Shown one piece after another: positions 6,192-64,000 of a stretch of DNA of 64,000 bases. The notes under the pieces are model-generated. The model did not search any database, was not told where the DNA came from, and was given only the letters and a program-made list of their open reading frames with translations. The translations under genes were made by a program, and so were the position numbers. Each line of letters starts with the position of its first letter. Within the stretch, counting starts at the first letter, position 1. The DNA comes from a bacterium (GTDB taxonomy: Bacteria; SZUA-79; Acidulodesulfobacterales; Acidulodesulfobacteraceae), in assembly GCA_021818985.1 (NCBI GenBank), contig JAKASO010000001.1, forward strand, positions 1 through 64,000, read 5' to 3'.

Positions 6192-8450
6192 TTACTCCAT
6201 CACCCTGTTAACTTTTATTACACCTTTTACCCCCTTAATAAGACTTAAAATATTTTCTACCTGCATGCTGTCCTTAACCTCGATATCAAAAATATGAATG
6301 GCTCTGCCGTCTTTAAGCGTCCTTACCTGAGCTTTTGAAATATTGGCGCCTTTTGCCGATATAGCCGAAGCAATTTCTGCAAGAATTCCTTTTTTATCCT
6401 CCGTTATAATTTTTATCTTGGTCTCAAAATAACCTATATCGGATGAGACGGCGCTTTTCCATCCGACTTCGATAATCCTGTTCTCATCCCCTCCTATTAT
6501 ATTTTTACATCCAGATTTATGAATTATAACCCCTCTTCCTCTCGATATGAAACCTATTATATCATCACCGGGCACCGGATGACAGCAGCCAGCAAGTTTA
6601 TAAAGCAGATCGCTGCCAAAGGACGAAACAATCACCGGCTTGGAAGGCACATTAGATATTTTTATTTTTTGCAGGATTTTTTGAAGCACCACTTCCGTCT
6701 TTTTCGTAATGGAAGAAAGCGGGGCAGACTTCTTAAATCCAGGAATCACCTGAGAAAATATAAATGTGGGTGAATATTTGCCGTAGCCTATGGAAGCAAA
6801 AAGCTCTTCCTCGTCTTTAAGGGAAAATTGCTTGATAGCTGAAGTTATAACGCTCTTAAGATCGAGATTTTTAATTCCCGATCTTTTAAATTCGCTTTCT
6901 AAGTTCTCTTTTCCAATAATTATGCTTTCATCCATTTCCTGCTGTCTTATCCAGCCTCTTATTTTTGAAAGGGCTCTGGACGATTTAGCATATTTAAGCC
7001 AATCTTTGGACGGATGATGGTCTTCTTTTGTAATGATTTCGACAATATCGCCATTTCGAAGGGTATATTTTAATGGTACAATAATCCCGTTAACAATTGC
7101 TCCGGCAGCGGTATCCCCAATCTCCGTATGGATATAATAAGCAAAATCTATTGGCGTGGAGTTTTTAGGCAGGGCAATAACCTTGCCTTTAGGAGTAAAA
7201 ACATACACTTCGTCCTGAAAAAGGTCTATTTTTACGCTATCAAGAAATTCATGGGGATTTTTAAGCTCCTTCTGGTATTCTACAAGCTGCCTGAGCCAGT
7301 TAAACTGATCTAAACTTTCTTTACTTTCGGTAATATTTTCTTTATATTTCCAGTGGGCTGCGATGCCGAACTCGTCAATAAAATGCATTTCCTTTGTTCT
7401 GATCTGTATCTCGATCCTCATACCGTCTAACCCGATGACGGTCGTATGAAGCGATCTGTACATATTGGCTTTAGGCATGGCTATATAGTCTTTTATTCTG
7501 CCCGAAATAGGCTTCCATATTGAATGAACTATACCTAAAACCTCATAGCACTCGTTTACGGTATCCACTATTATCCTTAGAGCGATAAGATCGTATATAT
7601 CTTCAAAACTGACGCGCTGCTCCATCATTTTTTTATAAATGCTATAAAAATGCTTCGGCCTCCCGTATATTTCCGCTTTAAGATTATGTTTTTCCAAGTT
7701 TTCCTTTAATACCTGCGAAACCCTATCAATATATCTTTCCCTTTCTATCTTTTTTTTACTGATCTTTAAAGATAAATCTTTATAAATTTCCGGATTCAGG
7801 TAATTTAAAGAAAGGTCTTCCAATTCGCTCTTTATCGAAAATATGCCGAGCCTGTTAGCAAGCGGGGCATATATATCAATAGTTTCTTGAGATATCTTTA
7901 TCTGACGTTCCGGCGGCAGAAAATCAAGTGTTCTTAAATTATGCAGCCGGTCCGCTAACTTTATGATAATAACTCTTATGTCTTTAGCCATTGCAACGAT
8001 CATCTTTCGTATGTTCTCAGCCTGCAGCTCCTCCGATGATTTAAAATTGAAAGATAACTTGCTGATCTTTGTAAGGCCGTCAACCATAAAGGCTATTTCA
8101 TCGCCGAATTCATTCCTTATTTCTTCTATCGTGGTAAGCGTATCTTCTACGGTATCATGCAAAAGGGCTGCAACTATAGAGGAACAGTCCATCCGCAGGC
8201 CTGCAACGATGGATGCGACTTCTATAAGATGGGAAAGATACGGCTCTCCCGATTGTCTTAGCTGGCCTTGGTGAACGCTTTTAGAAAAATTATAAGCCCT
8301 TTTTAAAAGTTTAAACCTGTCGCTTTGAATATCGTCAAAATCAATATTAGCGATATTCATTATGCTGTTTCTAAAGGTATCTGTCAGGGAATTAATGGAA
8401 TCTGGGGTCTCAGGATTGTTAACGGTAATTAAGGGTTCATACGGATTCAT
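6192..8450 (-). CDS. spoT: Bifunctional (p)ppGpp synthetase/hydrolase (RelA/SpoT)
   Basis: 752 residues, full length. Domains in order: HD hydrolase (H60, H74, HD at 98-99, ED at 102-103), a RelA/SpoT synthetase domain around 270-400 (YGRPKHFYSIYKKM; RIKDYIAMPK), a TGS domain (VYVFTPKGKVIALP) near 420-480, a zinc-finger-like segment with CC and GC (AGCCHPVPGDD), and a C-terminal ACT domain. Intact HD residues indicate both synthesis and hydrolysis of the alarmone. The start codon overlaps the rpoZ stop by 4 bases, implying translational coupling in a gmk-rpoZ-spoT operon as in Enterobacteria. Confidence 0.95.
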   Translation of the reverse strand: MNPYEPLITVNNPETPDSINSLTDTFRNSIMNIANIDFDDIQSDRFKLLKRAYNFSKSVHQGQLRQSGEPYLSHLIEVASIVAGLRMDCSSIVAALLHDTVEDTLTTIEEIRNEFGDEIAFMVDGLTKISKLSFNFKSSEELQAENIRKMIVAMAKDIRVIIIKLADRLHNLRTLDFLPPERQIKISQETIDIYAPLANRLGIFSIKSELEDLSLNYLNPEIYKDLSLKISKKKIERERYIDRVSQVLKENLEKHNLKAEIYGRPKHFYSIYKKMMEQRVSFEDIYDLIALRIIVDTVNECYEVLGIVHSIWKPISGRIKDYIAMPKANMYRSLHTTVIGLDGMRIEIQIRTKEMHFIDEFGIAAHWKYKENITESKESLDQFNWLRQLVEYQKELKNPHEFLDSVKIDLFQDEVYVFTPKGKVIALPKNSTPIDFAYYIHTEIGDTAAGAIVNGIIVPLKYTLRNGDIVEIITKEDHHPSKDWLKYAKSSRALSKIRGWIRQQEMDESIIIGKENLESEFKRSGIKNLDLKSVITSAIKQFSLKDEEELFASIGYGKYSPTFIFSQVIPGFKKSAPLSSITKKTEVVLQKILQKIKISNVPSKPVIVSSFGSDLLYKLAGCCHPVPGDDIIGFISRGRGVIIHKSGCKNIIGGDENRIIEVGWKSAVSSDIGYFETKIKIITEDKKGILAEIASAISAKGANISKAQVRTLKDGRAIHIFDIEVKDSMQVENILSLIKGVKGVIKVNRVME

Positions 8451-29830: not shown

Positions 29831-31477
29831 TTAAGAATCCCTGTGCCTGAATATATCTAAAAGCGTTGAATATCCGTATGTCGTTTTAATAGGAAGACTC
29901 ATCGAGGCAAATACAATCATAAAAGCAATAAAAAAACCGCCTATAAGAAAATATACATTGTGGTTAACGATAAAAATAACGGCTGAGATTAAACCTATAA
30001 ATTCGCCGATAAAGGCTGCCATAAGCCTTTTTATGACACGCACGATAAAGTTTTCCAACCCAGAAATATTGGTAGGATGTATTTTGACTCTGAAGTCTTC
30101 GATATAAGCGGCATGCATTACTCTTCTAGTGTCCATTATGAATGATTTTACCTCTTTAAAAATATTTTTAACGAAATTTAAAGGGGTCATTTTTTTGCCT
30201 AAAGGCGTTTTTTTGATATATTTTTTAGCGACGGGGATTATATCTTTTACAAGATTATACGACGGATCGAAAGTGGTGCCTATTCCTTCAAGAACGGCAG
30301 CCGTTTTAAAGATATAGACCAGATTGCCCGGCATCTCGAACGGAAAAGCATAAAATCCTTTCATAATCTCGTTTATAATCTCCTGAATTTTTTTATTGGA
30401 TATATCCTTCTGACTTAAAACGTTATATAACTTCTCAGCAACTTTTTCCAAAAGCTGCCTTGAAACCTCTCTGTTGACAATCCCAAGGGCATAGTAAGCA
30501 TCTATAATGCCGGAAAAATCCATATTTATCCCTGAAAGAACCGCTTTTACTAAGTTTTTTTTCGTATCTTCGGACACATGTATGATGAGACCAAAATCAA
30601 GGATTATAAGCATACCTTGATCGTCAACTAGAATATTGCCGGGATGCGGGTCGGCATGAATAACCCCCCGTATCAGGGATTGGTATATATAAAATTCTAT
30701 CAGCCTGTTAAGCACTTTAAGGGGGGGTAAATTTTTCTTTTTAAGGCTTTCTATGTCTGTAATCTTAACACCTTCGTAAAAATCCATAATCAGGATATTT
30801 TTTGTATTCACTTCCTCATATATGCGGGGAATTATTATCCATTTAAGGTCTTTAGAGAACTTTTGAAACTCTTTGACGTTTTTTGCTTCATGGATAAGGT
30901 CCATCTCTTCATAAATAGTGCTCTGAAATTCTTTTAACACAGTGGCAAGGGACTGAAGCGATTTATTTTCCGGCAAAAAATACCCGAGCGTCCTTAAAAT
31001 ATTTTTAAGGGTGATTATGTCGCGGCTGACGTTCTTTTCTATATCGGGCCTTATAACCTTGACTACCGTTTTATTGCCTTTGTAAACTGCCTTATAAACC
31101 TGGGCAACGGATGCCGCCGCAAACGGTTCGCTGTTAAATTCGTCAAAAATATCGTTTAACGAACCTTTTAGATCAGTTTCTATTAGCGGTTTGATCTTTT
31201 TGAAAGGAACAGGCGGAACCTCATCCTGAAGCTTGGATAATTCATTTAGATACTGCTGAGGCAAAAAATCCGCCCTTGTCGAAATAACCTGCGCAAGCTT
31301 TATAAATGTCGGGCCAAGCGAGGCAAGTATAGAGGTAAGCCGTCTTGCAACATTTACGTGGTATTTGTCGCTTAAACTTCTTCTTTTACCAAATATTACA
31401 AATCTTTTTTGGGTTACAAGCACATAAAAAATAAAAGGAAAAGTCTTAAAAAATATATAAAGATTTCTTTTTATCAA
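29831..31477 (-). CDS. UbiB/AarF (ABC1) atypical kinase-like protein
   Basis: 548 residues. UbiB family hallmarks: LGPTFIKLAQVISTRADFLP (the KxGQ motif reads KxAQ here), the ADP/ATP-binding segment AASVAQVYKA (A-rich loop), HADPHPGNILVD and LDFGL. Two C-terminal hydrophobic segments (about 490-535) anchor it in the membrane. The family supports quinone synthesis. The start is TTG at 31477, overlapping the upstream TGA by 4 bases with no clear ribosome site, implying coupling. No quinone gene is next door. Confidence 0.9.
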   Translation of the reverse strand: MIKRNLYIFFKTFPFIFYVLVTQKRFVIFGKRRSLSDKYHVNVARRLTSILASLGPTFIKLAQVISTRADFLPQQYLNELSKLQDEVPPVPFKKIKPLIETDLKGSLNDIFDEFNSEPFAAASVAQVYKAVYKGNKTVVKVIRPDIEKNVSRDIITLKNILRTLGYFLPENKSLQSLATVLKEFQSTIYEEMDLIHEAKNVKEFQKFSKDLKWIIIPRIYEEVNTKNILIMDFYEGVKITDIESLKKKNLPPLKVLNRLIEFYIYQSLIRGVIHADPHPGNILVDDQGMLIILDFGLIIHVSEDTKKNLVKAVLSGINMDFSGIIDAYYALGIVNREVSRQLLEKVAEKLYNVLSQKDISNKKIQEIINEIMKGFYAFPFEMPGNLVYIFKTAAVLEGIGTTFDPSYNLVKDIIPVAKKYIKKTPLGKKMTPLNFVKNIFKEVKSFIMDTRRVMHAAYIEDFRVKIHPTNISGLENFIVRVIKRLMAAFIGEFIGLISAVIFIVNHNVYFLIGGFFIAFMIVFASMSLPIKTTYGYSTLLDIFRHRDS

Positions 31478-32844
31478 TAGTATTTGCCCGTAGATATTAT
31501 GGTTACCGTATTAGAACTCGAATTTACCACAAAACAGTAGTGTCCGTTAGGCGAAATGCTGACCGCCGTAGGATAATCTCCTACCTTTACCTTCTTAACG
31601 ACTTCATCCTTTGTAATATCTATAACGCTCAGCGTAGAACTTTGCGTATTTATTACATAAAGATACCTGCCGTCAGGTGTGATGGCTTCAGCAGTGGGAC
31701 CTTTTCCGGTATATATCGTTGCAACCCTGCCAAAAGGGCGCGGAATATAATTTGAAGGGGCATATGGATGCGCAAGTCTTGAAACTGCGGGAGCCGCCGG
31801 AGCGGCAGCCGGCGAAACCGAACCGACCGCGGCATAAACAACGGGCGATTTTTTAATTCTGATAAATGCGGCACTCGAGGCCGAGGTATCGGTTACCAAA
31901 GCTATGCTCCCGTCCGGAGAAACTGCTGCATTCATGGGTCCAGCCGGTAGCGCGATAGTTTTAATAAGATTAAAATGAATAGCATTATAAATGGAGATAG
32001 CCTCATCTTGATAATTTACGACAAAAAGCATCATGCCATTGGGAGTGAGCGCCACGGAAGATGGATCTTTAAGCGTCTTAAATTTTCTTACAAGAGAAAA
32101 ATTTTTTGCATTATAAACATATATTCTGTTTATCTTTCCGCAAGCAACATAAACATATTTTACCGGAGAATCGGCGGGGCTGTATGCAACGCTCGAAGGA
32201 TTTTTACCGGCAGGAACGGTTCTTATAACGCTTAAAGAAGAAACGCTTATCAGGCTCAAAGAAGAACCACCGGCATTAGTAACAACTATGGTATGTCCAT
32301 CCGGGGAAATTGCTATGCCGTCGGGAGACTTCCCAACGGGAATTTTTTTTATTATAGTATTTCCTTTTGTATTTATAACATCTACATCGTTTCTACCCAT
32401 ATTTGTAACAAAAACTAATTTAGAATCGGGGGTAATAACAATATTTACGGGGCTACCCCCAGTGCGTATATTCAATGCCTTTGTCAAAGTTGTCATGTTT
32501 AACAGGCTGACGGTGCCGGCGGCCGTATTAGATACATAAGCAAAAATGCCGGAAGGGCTAAGCATAACGCCGGTAGGATGCAAGCCGGTTTTTATGGTTG
32601 CAACAACGCCTTTTGTTTTCATGCTTATAACGGAAACGTTGTTATTATCGGCGCTCGTTACAAGGGCATAATTACCGTCCGGGGAAAAGCTGATCCCAAA
32701 CGGAAAGCGTCCTACCGGAATATTTCTGGTAAGACGCGGGGTAAGAAATCCATAAGAAAGCGGAATAAAAATAAATAAACCTAAAACAATAACGGTTAAA
32801 AATAAAAACGACTTGAAAAATGGCTTGCGCAATAAATAATACAT
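31474..32844 (-). CDS. YVTN beta-propeller repeat protein, exported
   Basis: 456 residues. One N-terminal hydrophobic segment (about 12-33) looks like an uncleaved or cleaved signal. The rest is built of about eight 40-residue repeats with the pattern FVTNMGRNDVDVI / VAISPDGHTIVVTNAGG, the YVTN (YncE-like) family. Such propellers are usually periplasmic or cell-surface binding proteins. A Pro/Ala-rich linker (about 343-360) separates the last two repeats from the rest. It overlaps the UbiB-like gene by 4 bases. The ligand is unknown. Confidence 0.82.
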   Translation of the reverse strand: MYYLLRKPFFKSFLFLTVIVLGLFIFIPLSYGFLTPRLTRNIPVGRFPFGISFSPDGNYALVTSADNNNVSVISMKTKGVVATIKTGLHPTGVMLSPSGIFAYVSNTAAGTVSLLNMTTLTKALNIRTGGSPVNIVITPDSKLVFVTNMGRNDVDVINTKGNTIIKKIPVGKSPDGIAISPDGHTIVVTNAGGSSLSLISVSSLSVIRTVPAGKNPSSVAYSPADSPVKYVYVACGKINRIYVYNAKNFSLVRKFKTLKDPSSVALTPNGMMLFVVNYQDEAISIYNAIHFNLIKTIALPAGPMNAAVSPDGSIALVTDTSASSAAFIRIKKSPVVYAAVGSVSPAAAPAAPAVSRLAHPYAPSNYIPRPFGRVATIYTGKGPTAEAITPDGRYLYVINTQSSTLSVIDITKDEVVKKVKVGDYPTAVSISPNGHYCFVVNSSSNTVTIISTGKYY

Positions 32845-57646: not shown

Positions 57647-59035
57647 CTATATTGAACTGGAACCTATATTCTTATCGCTTTCGATATCTTTCTCGTAAAG
57701 GAGGATCGGTATAGAATTATTGAGTATCACATCGTCGTTTATAACACATTCTTTAATAGTAGGATCGGTGGGGATGTCATACATAACATCGAGCATAACG
57801 GACTCGAGGATAGATCTTAGACCCCTTGCCCCGGAACCCCTTTTGATCGCTTGTCTCGTTATTTCTTTAAGCGCCGAATCCGTAAACCGCAATTTAACAT
57901 TTTCGATATCAAAGAGTTTCTGATACTGTTTTATTAAAGCATTCTTCGGTTTTGTCAGTATATCTATCAACGCCTTTTCATCAAGTTCTTCTAAAGTCGC
58001 TATTACAGGCAACCTTCCGATAAATTCCGGAATAAGCCCGTATCTTAAAAGGTCCTGCGTTTCGACATTTTTTATGATCTTATATGAATCTCTTATTGTG
58101 CTAAGCTTGATATCTGCATTGAAGCCGATAGGTTGAGAGCTCATCCTCCTTTCGATTATTTTTTCAAGTCCCGTAAACGCCCCGCCGCAAATAAAAAGAA
58201 TATTGCTCGTATCAATCTTTAAAAATTCCTGATGAGGGTGTTTTCTTCCGCCTTTAGGGGGTATATTTGCGACAGTGCCTTCGATAATTTTCAGAAGAGC
58301 CTGCTGAACGCCCTCGCCAGACACATCCCTAGTAATAGAAATATTATCTGACTTTTTTGCGATTTTATCTATCTCGTCTATGTATATTACGCCTTTTTGC
58401 GCCTTTTCAACATCGTAATCGGCATTTTGAAGAAGTGAAAGTATTATGCTTTCGACATCTTCGCCCACGTAGCCGGCTTCGGTAAGGCTTGTAGCATCGG
58501 CTATTGCAAACGGCAGGTCAAGCATGCGGGCAAGAGTCTGAGCTAAAAGCGTCTTTCCGCTGCCTGTAGGACCTATAAGCAAAATATTACTTTTTTGCAT
58601 TTCTACATCCTGCGCGCTACTCTTTTCTTTGCTACTGCCATTATTGTTGTTATTATTGCTATGACCGGAACTGTAACTTGAACTTGCCTTTTCTTTTTTT
58701 ACCGACAGATTATATTCGATTCTTTTATAATGATTATAGACCGCTACGGATAGGATTTTTTTAGCCCTTTCCTGTCCTATTACATATTGATCCAAAAACT
58801 TTTTAATTTCAGCCGGTTTGTAGAGATATTCTCTTTCTTTAAATTTCAGGCCCTTTGCATGACATTCCTCTGAAATTATATCATTGCAAAGGTCTATACA
58901 TTCGTCGCATATATAAACGGAGGGACCGGCTATTAATTTTCTCACTTCATCTTGCGATTTTCCACAAAACGAACAAAATAACTCCCTTCCGTTGCCATTG
59001 TCGTCGCTACCGTTACCGCTGTTTTTCTTGCCCAT
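57647..59035 (-). CDS. clpX: ATP-dependent Clp protease ATPase subunit ClpX
   Basis: 462 residues. N-terminal zinc domain with C21, C24, C43, C46; Walker A GPTGSGKT (155-162); Walker [10 protein letters not shown]; and the ClpP-binding IGF loop (SQPIGF) near 320. ClpX unfolds tagged proteins for ClpP. There is a low-complexity insertion (113-143, with six consecutive Asn and many Ser) between the zinc domain and the AAA+ module. Confidence 0.96.
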
Positions 59036-59061: not shown

Positions 59062-59682
59062 TTATTTTTTTATTTCTTTATCACCTTTATCGTTCTTCCG
59101 GCTTTTCTTATCAACCACTGAATCAATAAGACCGTATTCAACGGATTCATTGCCGCTCATAAAAAAATCTCTCTCAGTGTCGGCATGTATTTTGTCAATC
59201 GGCTGAGAGGTATGATATGCAAGAATGTTATTGATCTCTTCCCTCATCCTTAATATCTCACGGGCCTGTATATCAATATCCGTAGCCTGACCCTGAAAGC
59301 CGCCGGACGGCTGATGTATCATCATACGGGAATGGGGCAGGGCAAATCTTTTGCCTTTGGTGCCTGCCGCAAGAAGAACGGCAGCCATGCTTGCCGCCAT
59401 GCCCATGCACAGAGTAGAAACATTAGGCTTAATATATTGCATAGTATCATAAATTGCAAGACCCGATGTTATTATACCGCCTGGAGAATTAATATAAATA
59501 TTAATATCTTTATCGGGATCTTCGGATTCGAGAAATAAGAGCTGGGCTATTATAAGATTTGCAAACGCATCATCTATCGCGTCCCCGATAAATATTATCC
59601 TTTCCTTTAAAAGTCTCGAATATATATCGTAGGCTCTTTCGCCGCGGTGGGTTTGTTCAACGACCATTGGAATGAGAGACAT
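59062..59682 (-). CDS. clpP: ATP-dependent Clp protease proteolytic subunit ClpP
   Basis: 206 residues. The catalytic triad is Ser98 (GMAASMAA), His123 (MMIHQPSGG) and Asp172 (ERDFF). Opening [16 protein letters not shown] is the family pattern. It forms the double-ring protease capped by ClpX, whose gene lies 26 bp downstream; tig lies 59 bp upstream. Confidence 0.97.
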
Positions 59683-59741: not shown

Positions 59742-61166
59742 TTATATATATGATACCTTATTTTTTATTAGAAAATCAAATATCTTTTCTTCAAGCAGCT
59801 GGCTTTTTACATTTGCAATGCTTTCTTTTTTACCGGTATACATCTTTTTGATCTCTTCGGAATCCACACCCGATTCTTCTCCAACCTTTTTATAAAACCC
59901 GGCAATATCAGCCTCGTCAACCATAATATTTTCTATACCGGCAATTCTTTGAAGCAGCAAATATGCCGCTATATCTTTTTTTGCCATTAATTTAAGGATG
60001 CCCATAATGTCTTTTTGTTGTTTTTCATCCGCTCCGGCATACCTGCCTTCTTTTTTTAACGCCTCAAACCTTTCATTCGCATCTTCTTCTACTATGCTTT
60101 CGGGTATTTCTATCCGGTTAAGATTGATAATTTCATCGGTAATTGACGCAACAAGAGCCTCTCTTTGCTTTTTTTCTTCGTAACTTTCAAGCTCTTCTCT
60201 GAGCTTATTCTTAAATTCATCCACGCTTTTAAAATTGCCGAAATTTCTCACAGCTTCGGCGTTTAATTCAGGCAGAATTTTTCTTTCAATCTCTTTAACC
60301 GTGCCTTTTACCTTGACCCCTCTTTCAATATCGTCAAATTCAAAATTATCGCCGGTCTTCTTTCCTATAAGCGAAGATTCAAAACTTTTTTCAAGAATGC
60401 TCGAATTAAGACTTATTAAATAATCTTTAGCGCTGTCAATAACTTTATCTTCCTTATCTATGGTAACATAATCTATTTTAATAAAATATCTGTCTTTATC
60501 GTTAATACTTTCGCCTTCGTCAACCTTTACCGTATCGGCTACCCTCTCAAGCAGAAAATTTATCTCGTCATTTAATAATTCGTCGGTAATATCTCTTTTT
60601 TTAATGTTTTTTACTTTAATGTCAGAATAATTTATTTTATTTATATCCGGCATGACTTCAAAACTGATCTGGTATGTGTTTGTATCCATTTCTTTATCCA
60701 CAGCCGGCGTTCCTACAACGGATATTTTTTTATCGGTTATCGCTTTTTTAAAAACATCGTTTAAAACGTCCATTTTAGCCTCTTCGAAAAGCTCTTTTTC
60801 ATAATACTTCCTTATAATGGGCATCGGAGTTTTACCCGGCCTGAAACCTTTAATATTCGCTTTTTTTGCCGCTTCTTTAAGTTTTTTCTCAAGGATGTCC
60901 TTTGCCTTTTGCAAGTCTATTGTAACCTTTGCCCTTTTTTTTATAGCGCTTATATCTTCGATTTCGATTGCGCTATCCCCATTGGGTGGCGGCACCATAG
61001 CCGTATCAAGAGCAAGAGCTGTTTCGGCCATACCTTTGGTACTTAAGTCATTTTTGTTTCTTTCAGGTTTATCAGCCGTTATCATGCCGGTTGTTATACC
61101 GGCTATATTATCACCGGTATCGTTTTTAACTTCTTCAGGTTTATCCGGGAACAATTTTTCTTTCAT
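59742..61166 (-). CDS. tig: Trigger factor with N-terminal extension
   Basis: 474 residues. The ribosome-binding motif GFRPGKTPMPII, an FKBP-type PPIase domain (about 215-300) and the C-terminal chaperone arms are recognisable. Sequence matching the usual start (VEDISAIKK) begins only near residue 68, so about 65 polar residues precede it. A GGAGG 8 bases before the ATG at 61166 supports the long form, though a later Met is possible. First gene of tig-clpP-clpX. Confidence 0.9.
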   Translation of the reverse strand: MKEKLFPDKPEEVKNDTGDNIAGITTGMITADKPERNKNDLSTKGMAETALALDTAMVPPPNGDSAIEIEDISAIKKRAKVTIDLQKAKDILEKKLKEAAKKANIKGFRPGKTPMPIIRKYYEKELFEEAKMDVLNDVFKKAITDKKISVVGTPAVDKEMDTNTYQISFEVMPDINKINYSDIKVKNIKKRDITDELLNDEINFLLERVADTVKVDEGESINDKDRYFIKIDYVTIDKEDKVIDSAKDYLISLNSSILEKSFESSLIGKKTGDNFEFDDIERGVKVKGTVKEIERKILPELNAEAVRNFGNFKSVDEFKNKLREELESYEEKKQREALVASITDEIINLNRIEIPESIVEEDANERFEALKKEGRYAGADEKQQKDIMGILKLMAKKDIAAYLLLQRIAGIENIMVDEADIAGFYKKVGEESGVDSEEIKKMYTGKKESIANVKSQLLEEKIFDFLIKNKVSYI

Positions 61167-61422: not shown

Positions 61423-63360
61423 TTAACCAGCAAAAGTAGGTCTTTTTGACAGCATCTCAGGAAGCATAAGACTTCTAAAAGGCATATCTTTAGTTTGCTC
61501 TTTCATTTCATTAATAAGATCTTCCATCGTCATATTAAAAGTTTTTCTGGCTTTATACCTGTTCCTGACGGATAACATTCCCGTATTTTTTTCTTTTTCC
61601 CCTACTACTAAAATATAGGGAATCCATTCCTCTTCGGCAAACATGATCTTTTTACCCATGCTAAAGTCCCTGTCGTCAATATCCACCCTGATATTAGACG
61701 ATGATAACTGCTCCATAAGTTTCAAGGCAAATGAAGTATGCTGAGTAGAAACGGGTATGATCCTTACCTGCGTTATGCTTATCCATAGCGGCAAAGCGGG
61801 GATCTCTTTTTTAAGCGCTTCTTCAAGAATTAAATACATCCACCTTTCTATTGCGCCTACAGAAGAATGACATATTATACATCCTTCCTTTTCTCCTTTT
61901 TCATTAACAAAGTTGATTCCGTATCTCTTCGCATCCTCCACATCAAGCTGGACAGTGGACAACTGGCATGAACCCGACACCGAGTCTATCCCCTGAAATT
62001 CATGCTTTAATGCCCAGTAATGCTTCATCTTCGAAAGCGTTTCTATTAATGCAGGCTTTTTTGAATATGCAAGCAAGTTGACTATTTTATCTTTATGTTT
62101 ATCGTAATATTCCTGAACTATCCTGAAAACAACCGCATATTCGATGCCCGCTGCTTCCGCAAGGTCTGAATACCGCCTGTAAAGCTCCCGGTATTCATTA
62201 AACCCCTCCTCTAAATTAAGGCAAAAGCTGTGAATATCCGGCATGGTAAAAGCCCTCAGCCTTCTTAAACCGGAAAGCTCGCCGCTTCTTTCGTATCTGA
62301 AACTTTTAGACGATTCGTAAAATCTCAATGGAAGCTGTTTATAACTGATTTTTGCATCCTTTAGCATCGAAAAAAGCCCAAAATCCCCGGCAAACCTCAA
62401 TACAAACTCTTTTCCTGCGGCAAAAACCCTTGGGACGGCATCGTCCTTTATTTTATCTTCCGGTACCATGACGGAGTAGTGCCTTTCATGGAAAGACTCT
62501 CCCTGCCCTCTTATTTCAGGCTTATTCCAATTATAGATAAGCGGGGTTTCGATTTCCATGCAATTAAGTTTTTTTAAAGCAATATCCTCAGCCCAGTCTG
62601 AAATAAGCTTGAACATTAAAGTGCCCTTCGGATAAAATCGAAGATGTCCCGAATCGGAATTTTCTTCGTGGTCTGCAAGTTCGAGCTTTTTCATAACCTC
62701 AATCGAAGGAGGCTCGGCGCCGGTTTTTATTTTAAATTCTTCAAAAGCAATAAATTTATGTAATGAGGGATATTTTGCAAATATATCGTTATTAAGAACA
62801 TTTTTATCCGTCAGATCTACCGGTATTTCACTGCCGTCATAATTTAATATAAAGAATCTGCTTTCAACTTCGCGGACGATATTTTCCCTTATTTTAATTT
62901 CATTTTTTTTTGTTTCGCCTGCAACGGTTAAAGCAGTTATATGCCTTGACGATTCGCTTAGCGGATGGCCCTTGCATGAAACATCAAAACCTTTATACCA
63001 GCCGAATGGCGCTCTATAAACTGGAATTTCGGGAATTTTAACGATAACCTTGGATTTTAATTCATCAAGGATCGGTATTGCCGACGACGGTAAACCAAGA
63101 TCGTTTGAAAGATGTGCATAAGGATAGATAACGATATTAGACGGCTTTAACTTTTCAGAAAGCTCTTTAATATCTAAAGAAGCGGCCTCGGTTATTTCTC
63201 CGGCATTACCGGCATCCAATCTTTCAACCGTCGTAAAAACAATAAGGGCATTTTTAAAAGAGTTTTCTTTATGTATTTTATGATCAATATCTTCAGCAAC
63301 CGGCGTTTTTCCGGTCAACCTGTAACAAAAATTATCGGAATGAATAAATAAAAGCTTCAT
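61423..63360 (-). CDS. thrS: Threonyl-tRNA synthetase, archaeal type
   Basis: 645 residues. The N-terminus (KLLFIHSDN) and the stretch RAPFGWYKGFDVSCKGHPLSE (113-135 region) are those of the archaeal editing domain, which is related to D-aminoacyl-tRNA deacylases and is not found in the bacterial ThrRS family (bacterial type has TGS and another editing domain). The class II core follows: motif 2 FRYERSGELSGLRRLRAFTM, motif 3 GAIERWMYL, then the anticodon domain ending LSKRPTFAG. Zinc ligands His377 and His498 are present, but the expected Cys is Asp326 (RFAGDFGLF). It charges tRNA-Thr and clears Ser mischarging. A horizontal origin is inferred. Confidence 0.9.
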   Translation of the reverse strand: MKLLFIHSDNFCYRLTGKTPVAEDIDHKIHKENSFKNALIVFTTVERLDAGNAGEITEAASLDIKELSEKLKPSNIVIYPYAHLSNDLGLPSSAIPILDELKSKVIVKIPEIPVYRAPFGWYKGFDVSCKGHPLSESSRHITALTVAGETKKNEIKIRENIVREVESRFFILNYDGSEIPVDLTDKNVLNNDIFAKYPSLHKFIAFEEFKIKTGAEPPSIEVMKKLELADHEENSDSGHLRFYPKGTLMFKLISDWAEDIALKKLNCMEIETPLIYNWNKPEIRGQGESFHERHYSVMVPEDKIKDDAVPRVFAAGKEFVLRFAGDFGLFSMLKDAKISYKQLPLRFYESSKSFRYERSGELSGLRRLRAFTMPDIHSFCLNLEEGFNEYRELYRRYSDLAEAAGIEYAVVFRIVQEYYDKHKDKIVNLLAYSKKPALIETLSKMKHYWALKHEFQGIDSVSGSCQLSTVQLDVEDAKRYGINFVNEKGEKEGCIICHSSVGAIERWMYLILEEALKKEIPALPLWISITQVRIIPVSTQHTSFALKLMEQLSSSNIRVDIDDRDFSMGKKIMFAEEEWIPYILVVGEKEKNTGMLSVRNRYKARKTFNMTMEDLINEMKEQTKDMPFRSLMLPEMLSKRPTFAG

Positions 63361-63638: not shown

Positions 63639-64000
63639 TTAAAAATCGTTCGGGAGGGCTTCAAGTTCTTTTGCGGTAAAAACAGGTCCGTCTTTGCAGA
63701 CATACACGCTTCCGACATTACACCTGCCGCATTTACCCAAACCGCATTTCATCCGGTTTTCAAGAGTCGTAATTATATTTTCTTTATCAAAGCCCATTTT
63801 ATCTAACGATTTTAAAACAAATTTGATCATGATGAGGGGACCGCAAACAACGGCAACCGCATTGTCTCCTTTAAGTGGAAGTTGTTCAAGCACGGTAGGA
63901 ACAAAACCAACCCTCCCCGTCCAGTCTTTTGTTTCTCCACTGGGATCAACCGTAATAACAACATTGGTATCAAGAGCTTTTTTCCATTCTTCCATAACGC
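63639..64000 (-). CDS. Fe-S flavoprotein reductase subunit (partial)
   Basis: About 120 C-terminal residues, continuing beyond the right edge. The C-terminal motif CGLGKCGRCNVG with C84, C89, C92 and C100 (numbered from the Met at 63995) forms a [2Fe-2S] site, and KDGPVFTAKELEALP is typical. It resembles the FAD/NAD(P)-binding subunits of [NiFe]-hydrogenase/sulfhydrogenase gamma, AsrB and PyrK/HdrF-like proteins. It would move electrons from NAD(P)H to a partner; which partner is hidden outside the window. The stop is followed by a terminator at 63503-63533. Confidence 0.8.
   Translation of the reverse strand, partial: VMEEWKKALDTNVVITVDPSGETKDWTGRVGFVPTVLEQLPLKGDNAVAVVCGPLIMIKFVLKSLDKMGFDKENIITTLENRMKCGLGKCGRCNVGSVYVCKDGPVFTAKELEALPNDF

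Follow-up and report, generated by a model that had tools for sequence, protein, structure and literature searches.

An archaeal rare-form threonyl-tRNA synthetase as the only ThrRS found in the bacterial phylum Candidatus Acidulodesulfobacteriota

Results

An archaeal-type thrS gene in a bacterial gene neighbourhood

The window analysed here, a stretch of 64,000 nucleotides, belongs to contig 83 of a metagenome-assembled genome (MAG) of 1.62 Mb, which consists of 89 contigs and is rated 100% complete. On its minus strand, positions 61423..63360 are occupied by an ATG-started open reading frame of 645 aa that fits the interval exactly; the plus strand is rich in stops there. The frame is thrS, encoding a threonyl-tRNA synthetase (ThrRS) of the archaeal type, or "rare form", and it is the sole ThrRS gene of the genome. 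Three Pfam domains are found along the protein: a DTD-like editing domain (PF08915, residues 1-141, 62938..63360, 142-145.8 bits against a cut-off of 30), the class II core (PF00587, tRNA-synt_2b, residues 317-514, 61819..62412) and the anticodon-binding domain (PF03129, HGTP_anticodon, residues 531-621, 61498..61770), all on the minus strand. Alignment columns locate in the core motif 2 (R355/E357/R367), motif 3 (R506) and the zinc-site residues D326-H377-H498. The TGS domain is diagnostic of bacterial ThrRS, and it was absent from the Pfam search of the 645-aa protein. PRK03991, the NCBIfam model of archaeal ThrRS, scores the protein at 650.5 bits (cut-off 484), and the general thrS model TIGR00418 gives 381 bits, slightly under its cut-off; moreover, the N-terminal domain matches editing domains of archaeal ThrRS whose structures have been solved, 4rrf (E 2.7e-29) and 1y2q. 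An earlier note on this DNA, which named no strand, had proposed an archaeal editing domain and C-terminal tail without TGS, and this architecture is borne out, the cited motifs being present at residues 2-10 (KLLFIHSDN), residues 119-136 (FGWYKGFDVSCKGHPLSE) and the C-terminus (LSKRPTFAG).

The same note had described the neighbours as bacterial, and they are. The next gene after thrS in every locus of the phylum that we read is tig, encoding trigger factor (59742..61166), followed by the conserved syntenic neighbours clpP (59062..59682) and clpX (57647..59035), all on the minus strand. Upstream, thrS is flanked in the phylum by a gene for a NAD-binding/DHODB-type Fe-S oxidoreductase subunit, of which the 3' part, cut by the window edge, lies at 63639..63998 (minus strand). 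Across the six genera of the phylum the order is oxidoreductase-thrS-tig-clpP-clpX-hup, read to the contig ends, with yebC-ruvC following in several loci. An archaeal contig mis-binned into a bacterial MAG would explain an archaea-like gene within a metagenome assembly, but this explanation has next to no probability left: bacterial-type clpX, clpP, tig, yebC, ruvC and spoT lie on the same contig as thrS, and it is refuted by the same gene arrangement recurring in independent MAGs from several studies.

Elsewhere in the window, positions 31474-32844 encode a YVTN-repeat beta-propeller protein, similar to the models of hydrazine synthase beta and lactonase-type NosZ at scores well below their cut-offs.

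Distribution in the phylum and search for a second ThrRS

The nearest named relative, 72% identical, is Ca. Acididesulfobacter diazotrophicus, which NCBI places in Ca. Acidulodesulfobacteriota (SZUA-79), a phylum of acid-loving bacteria; another relative is the isolate SZUA-79 itself. In the genome collection used, "order" and "phylum" give an identical set of 30 genomes. PF08915 is carried by 27 of them, in all six genera, and by 19/19 of the high-quality genomes (at least 90% complete, at most 5% contaminated); the three genomes in which it is missing are 78%, 65% and 59% complete. One bin has two copies. Two ThrRS loci, both with the usual synteny, come from one MAG that is probably this same bin, and the bin is probably mixed.

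A search with TIGR00418 returned a single type of full-length ThrRS per genome, the archaeal one. The other matches are partial (68 bits or less) and, judging by frame size, would belong to other class II synthetases. A bacterial-type ThrRS was not found in any of the 30 genomes, 19 of which are at least 90% complete. In the phylum, TGS domains occur only in frames about 490-870 aa long, in most genomes a single one; in the window genome the only one belongs to RelA/SpoT (6192-8450; 791 bits, TIGR00691). In E. coli, thrS adjoins infC. The infC-rpmI-rplT-ihf operon is intact in six genomes of the phylum, which represent six genera, and it contains no thrS; upstream of infC-rpmI-rplT lie alaS, in some genomes a glutaredoxin-like gene, and LolB-like and BamD-like genes (names other than alaS, infC, rpmI and rplT were assigned by reading the sequences).

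These results bear on the suggestion, offered as an alternative in the earlier note, that the gene is an extra copy serving some special role. Such a role might lie in stress or resistance, and a bacterial thrS would then be missing from the assembly. A MAG in 89 contigs could conceal such a gene, but the suggestion is now very improbable: a second ThrRS type occurs in none of the 30 genomes of the phylum, the infC operon was read whole, and thrS keeps a housekeeping synteny with clpPX and tig. A second, bacterial thrS is thus rejected by the TIGR00418 and TGS searches together with the operon. The locus pattern is that of a housekeeping gene that displaced another, and it excludes both an extra copy and mis-binning.

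Phylogeny of the phylum's ThrRS

Archaeal relatives were sought in 194 Thermoplasmatota and 148 Asgard genomes. The best matches are a subset of Thermoplasmata (46-56% identity) and two Asgard genomes (52-53%); most other archaeal-type ThrRS fall in the range 34-48%. In trees whose archaeal sampling is without methanogens, Thermococcales and Crenarchaeota, the phylum's sequences are monophyletic within the archaeal ones, both in a 79-row tree (support 100) and in a careful 39-row tree (100/100).

The N-terminal domains of E. coli ThrRS have no homology to the archaeal editing domain. For this reason the tree with an outgroup of 15 common-type rows was built on the core and anticodon domains only; an outgroup AU test that included the E. 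coli N-terminal domains gave p = 0.28 and is unsound. In the core and anticodon tree the phylum clade (100/100) is nested inside the archaeal rare-form ThrRS through three successive supported branches of 28 rows (100/99), 32 rows (100/100) and 35 rows (96/98), the first of which takes in 15 Thermoplasmata, two Asgard and one other archaeal sequence. The common-type branch is very long, with about 4 changes per site, and the phylum clade has a long stem. Forcing the phylum to group with the common type costs 15.4 units of lnL and gives an AU p of 0.099, that is, this arrangement is disfavoured and not formally rejected. We also considered which archaeal group is the sister, Thermoplasmata or Asgard; the AU values (p 0.15/0.18 at full length, 0.03/0.29 for the core) do not decide between them, and we therefore name no donor.

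A third zinc ligand changed to aspartate

The zinc ligands of E. coli ThrRS are Cys334, His385 and His511. The two histidines are kept in the 645-aa protein (H377 and H498), and the Cys334 column holds Asp326. All 14 phylum sequences in the comparison carry Asp in this column, as do the Armatimonadetes sequence and 32 of 67 archaeal rows; E. coli and the remaining 35 archaeal rows carry Cys, so that a third ligand Cys does not define the archaeal-type family. On the tree the Cys/Asp change maps once, uniting the phylum with the Asp-type archaeal subset; this marker supports the nested placement because a root on the phylum branch requires a reversion from Asp to Cys. In human ThrRS the counterparts of the zinc ligands are C413, H464 and H590, and C413, a zinc chelator that also contributes to threonine recognition, was listed among the few inhibitor-site residues that are not variable in archaeal ThrRS (PMC4389257), which indicates that the Asp-type subgroup was not described there.

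In the phylum and its closest archaeal relatives, the residues leading up to H498 are GCIICH, and the two extra cysteines there might also bind metal.

Editing residues and tRNA(Thr)

In the editing domain, H83, W121, Y122, K123 and E136 align with H83, Y119, Y120, K121 and E134 of Pyrococcus abyssi, where the matching lysine, K121, positions the catalytic water (roles of the editing residues from PMC4491819). H83, Y122, K123 and E136, together with R355, E357, R367 and R506 of the core, are invariant in the 14 phylum sequences.

According to a review, the DTD-like domain of Methanosarcina mazei ThrRS reportedly hydrolyses only archaeal Ser-tRNA(Thr), possibly through U73, which is conserved in archaeal tRNA(Thr), bacteria having A73 or U73 (PMC11295145); A73 is the more abundant in bacteria (PMC6097841). 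E. coli tRNA(Thr) served in assays of archaeal editing domains (PMC4491819), so the restriction to archaeal tRNA(Thr) is not absolute. A pattern search recovered 51 tRNA-Thr genes in 27 genomes of the phylum, of which 49, with CGT and TGT anticodons, were read. All 49 have U73, and so have the archaeal genes examined; Paenibacillus and E. coli have A73. We considered U73 as proof of co-evolution and dropped it, as Collinsella, an ordinary bacterium, also has U73; U73 in the phylum may consequently be a pre-adaptation and not a later change. It is compatible with a putative co-adaptation of tRNA(Thr) and enzyme and does not prove it.

Despite the 100% completeness rating, the window genome yielded a single tRNA-Thr (CGT) and neither Thr-TGT, Thr-GGT nor tRNA-Tyr, probably owing to a contig break or assembly gap.

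Discussion

Taken together, we consider it highly probable, at nearly nine in ten, that the housekeeping ThrRS of Ca. Acidulodesulfobacteriota is an archaeal rare-form enzyme gained by the ancestor or stem of the phylum, with loss of the resident thrS. Judged from sequence comparison, the data point to one ancient archaea-to-bacteria transfer that would have displaced the bacterial gene, with donor and direction not statistically final. The replacement of an essential enzyme proposed in the earlier note is in this way supported, by nesting inside archaeal ThrRS and by the lack of a second ThrRS type. The note had also held that an archaeal-type ThrRS ancestral to and common in the phylum would speak against transfer. 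Common it is, but the phylum-wide presence dates the acquisition to before the phylum radiation and is not evidence against transfer.

In the opposite direction, this bacterial lineage would have held the rare form ancestrally, or the form would predate the split of the domains, and archaea would have received it from these bacteria. This reading draws on the very long common-type branch, on the AU value for the alternative rooting and on the long stem of the phylum clade. We regard it as improbable, though less so than the two explanations dismissed above. Against it stand the three nested branches; the outgroup Cys kept in other archaeal sequences, so that a root on the phylum would need Cys to become Asp and then Cys again; PF08915, found in none of 10 bacterial control genomes; and the broad occurrence of the rare form in archaea, all bacterial ThrRS being placed in the common group by Fournier et al. 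(PMC4427996). The rooted topology supports transfer from archaea to bacteria, and so does the Asp/Cys marker, with AU p = 0.10 for the alternative rooting.

The history of the enzyme would then be as follows. The last common ancestor of the phylum, or its stem, would have obtained a rare-form ThrRS from a source lineage near the Thermoplasmata/Asgard (Sigynarchaeota-like) sequences; the acquired gene would have settled with the oxidoreductase gene on one side and tig-clpP-clpX on the other, and the resident thrS, which in E. coli lies beside infC, would have been lost. In the present-day cell the class II core is predicted to make Thr-tRNA(Thr) with a zinc site formed by Asp326, His377 and His498, and misformed Ser-tRNA(Thr) would pass to the N-terminal DTD-like domain for hydrolysis. 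The U73 of the bacterium's tRNA(Thr), as in archaea, would let the archaeal editing domain accept the tRNA.

A further and rather doubtful proposal is that the substrate-reading zinc is held by Asp-His-His instead of Cys-His-His, a site derived from an uncharacterised Asp-type archaeal subfamily, that fixation of U73 permitted or followed the replacement, and that the insensitivity of archaeal-type ThrRS to natural inhibitors of the enzyme, borrelidin among them, may have favoured it. Archaeal ThrRS is borrelidin-resistant, and the resistance has been tied to the positions of E. coli H309, L489 and Q381 (PMC4389257). In the alignment these are Q286, D476 and M373 of the 645-aa protein, E. coli Q381 corresponding to human Q460. 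On such residue comparisons, inhibitor resistance as a driver for keeping the enzyme is speculative.

Aminoacyl-tRNA synthetases are known to pass between domains, and this one belongs to a known family; what appears to be new is a whole bacterial phylum that relies on the rare form. Our search of open-licence papers returned no report linking Ca. Acidulodesulfobacteriota to ThrRS and none of any bacterial phylum dependent on the rare form, and the main text of the paper describing the order does not mention threonyl-tRNA synthetase (PMC6776010). Fournier et al. (2015) state that every bacterial and eukaryal ThrRS belongs to the common group and that only some archaea have the rare form (PMC4427996); its use throughout a bacterial phylum clearly departs from this rule. 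The case is also a natural experiment on whether an archaeal synthetase, with an editing domain that possibly depends on U73, can take over a bacterial tRNA set, and it provides a marker for ordering the origin of the phylum relative to its archaeal donor. Moreover, it exposes an Asp-type zinc site at a residue that helps to read the hydroxyl of threonine. Annotation based on TGS and N2 domains, or the assumption that an archaeal gene means contamination, would mishandle such a thrS.

Editing domains and synthetases are also found in other combinations. The archaeon SI047_bin24 (0.8 Mb) has two ThrRS, one common-type and one rare-type without an editing domain, the latter 54% identical to the phylum's enzyme. 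Several Asgard genomes have an Asp-type ThrRS without an editing domain, and several of these carry a separate editing-domain gene elsewhere (for example G241:C21:8970-9422 and G231:C1:296423-296851), that is, a split ThrRS. Among 291 Armatimonadota genomes PF08915 occurs in six: in two it belongs to full-length archaeal-type ThrRS (frames of 652 and 664 aa), and in four it lies in short frames (178-244 aa) that probably encode free-standing editing domains. As far as sampled, archaeal-type ThrRS is rare elsewhere in bacteria.

Comparison with known systems

The bacterial common-form ThrRS, as in E. coli, catalyses the same reaction with a homologous core and anticodon domain, but has TGS and an N2 editing domain where the 645-aa protein has the DTD-like domain. 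The full-length enzymes of Armatimonadota likewise occur in bacterial MAGs alongside U73 tRNA-Thr; however, the one compared is about 33% identical to the 645-aa protein, and they are found in 2/291 genomes, in contrast to the phylum-wide presence here. The enzyme agrees with the archaeal rare form (the PRK03991/PF08915 fusion) in the order of its domains, in its editing residues and class II motifs and in a C-terminal tail like SKRPxFxG, and differs in its host, a bacterial phylum, and in one zinc ligand changed from Cys to Asp, as in one archaeal subgroup. Four Thermoplasmata/Sigynarchaeota-like ThrRS (L141, L024, L026 and L172), 49-55% identical over the full length, have the Asp-type zinc site and form one supported clade with the phylum sequences, but lie among other neighbours, read from translations as queE/queC/queD-like and MtxX-like genes at L024 and a SepRS-like gene at L026.
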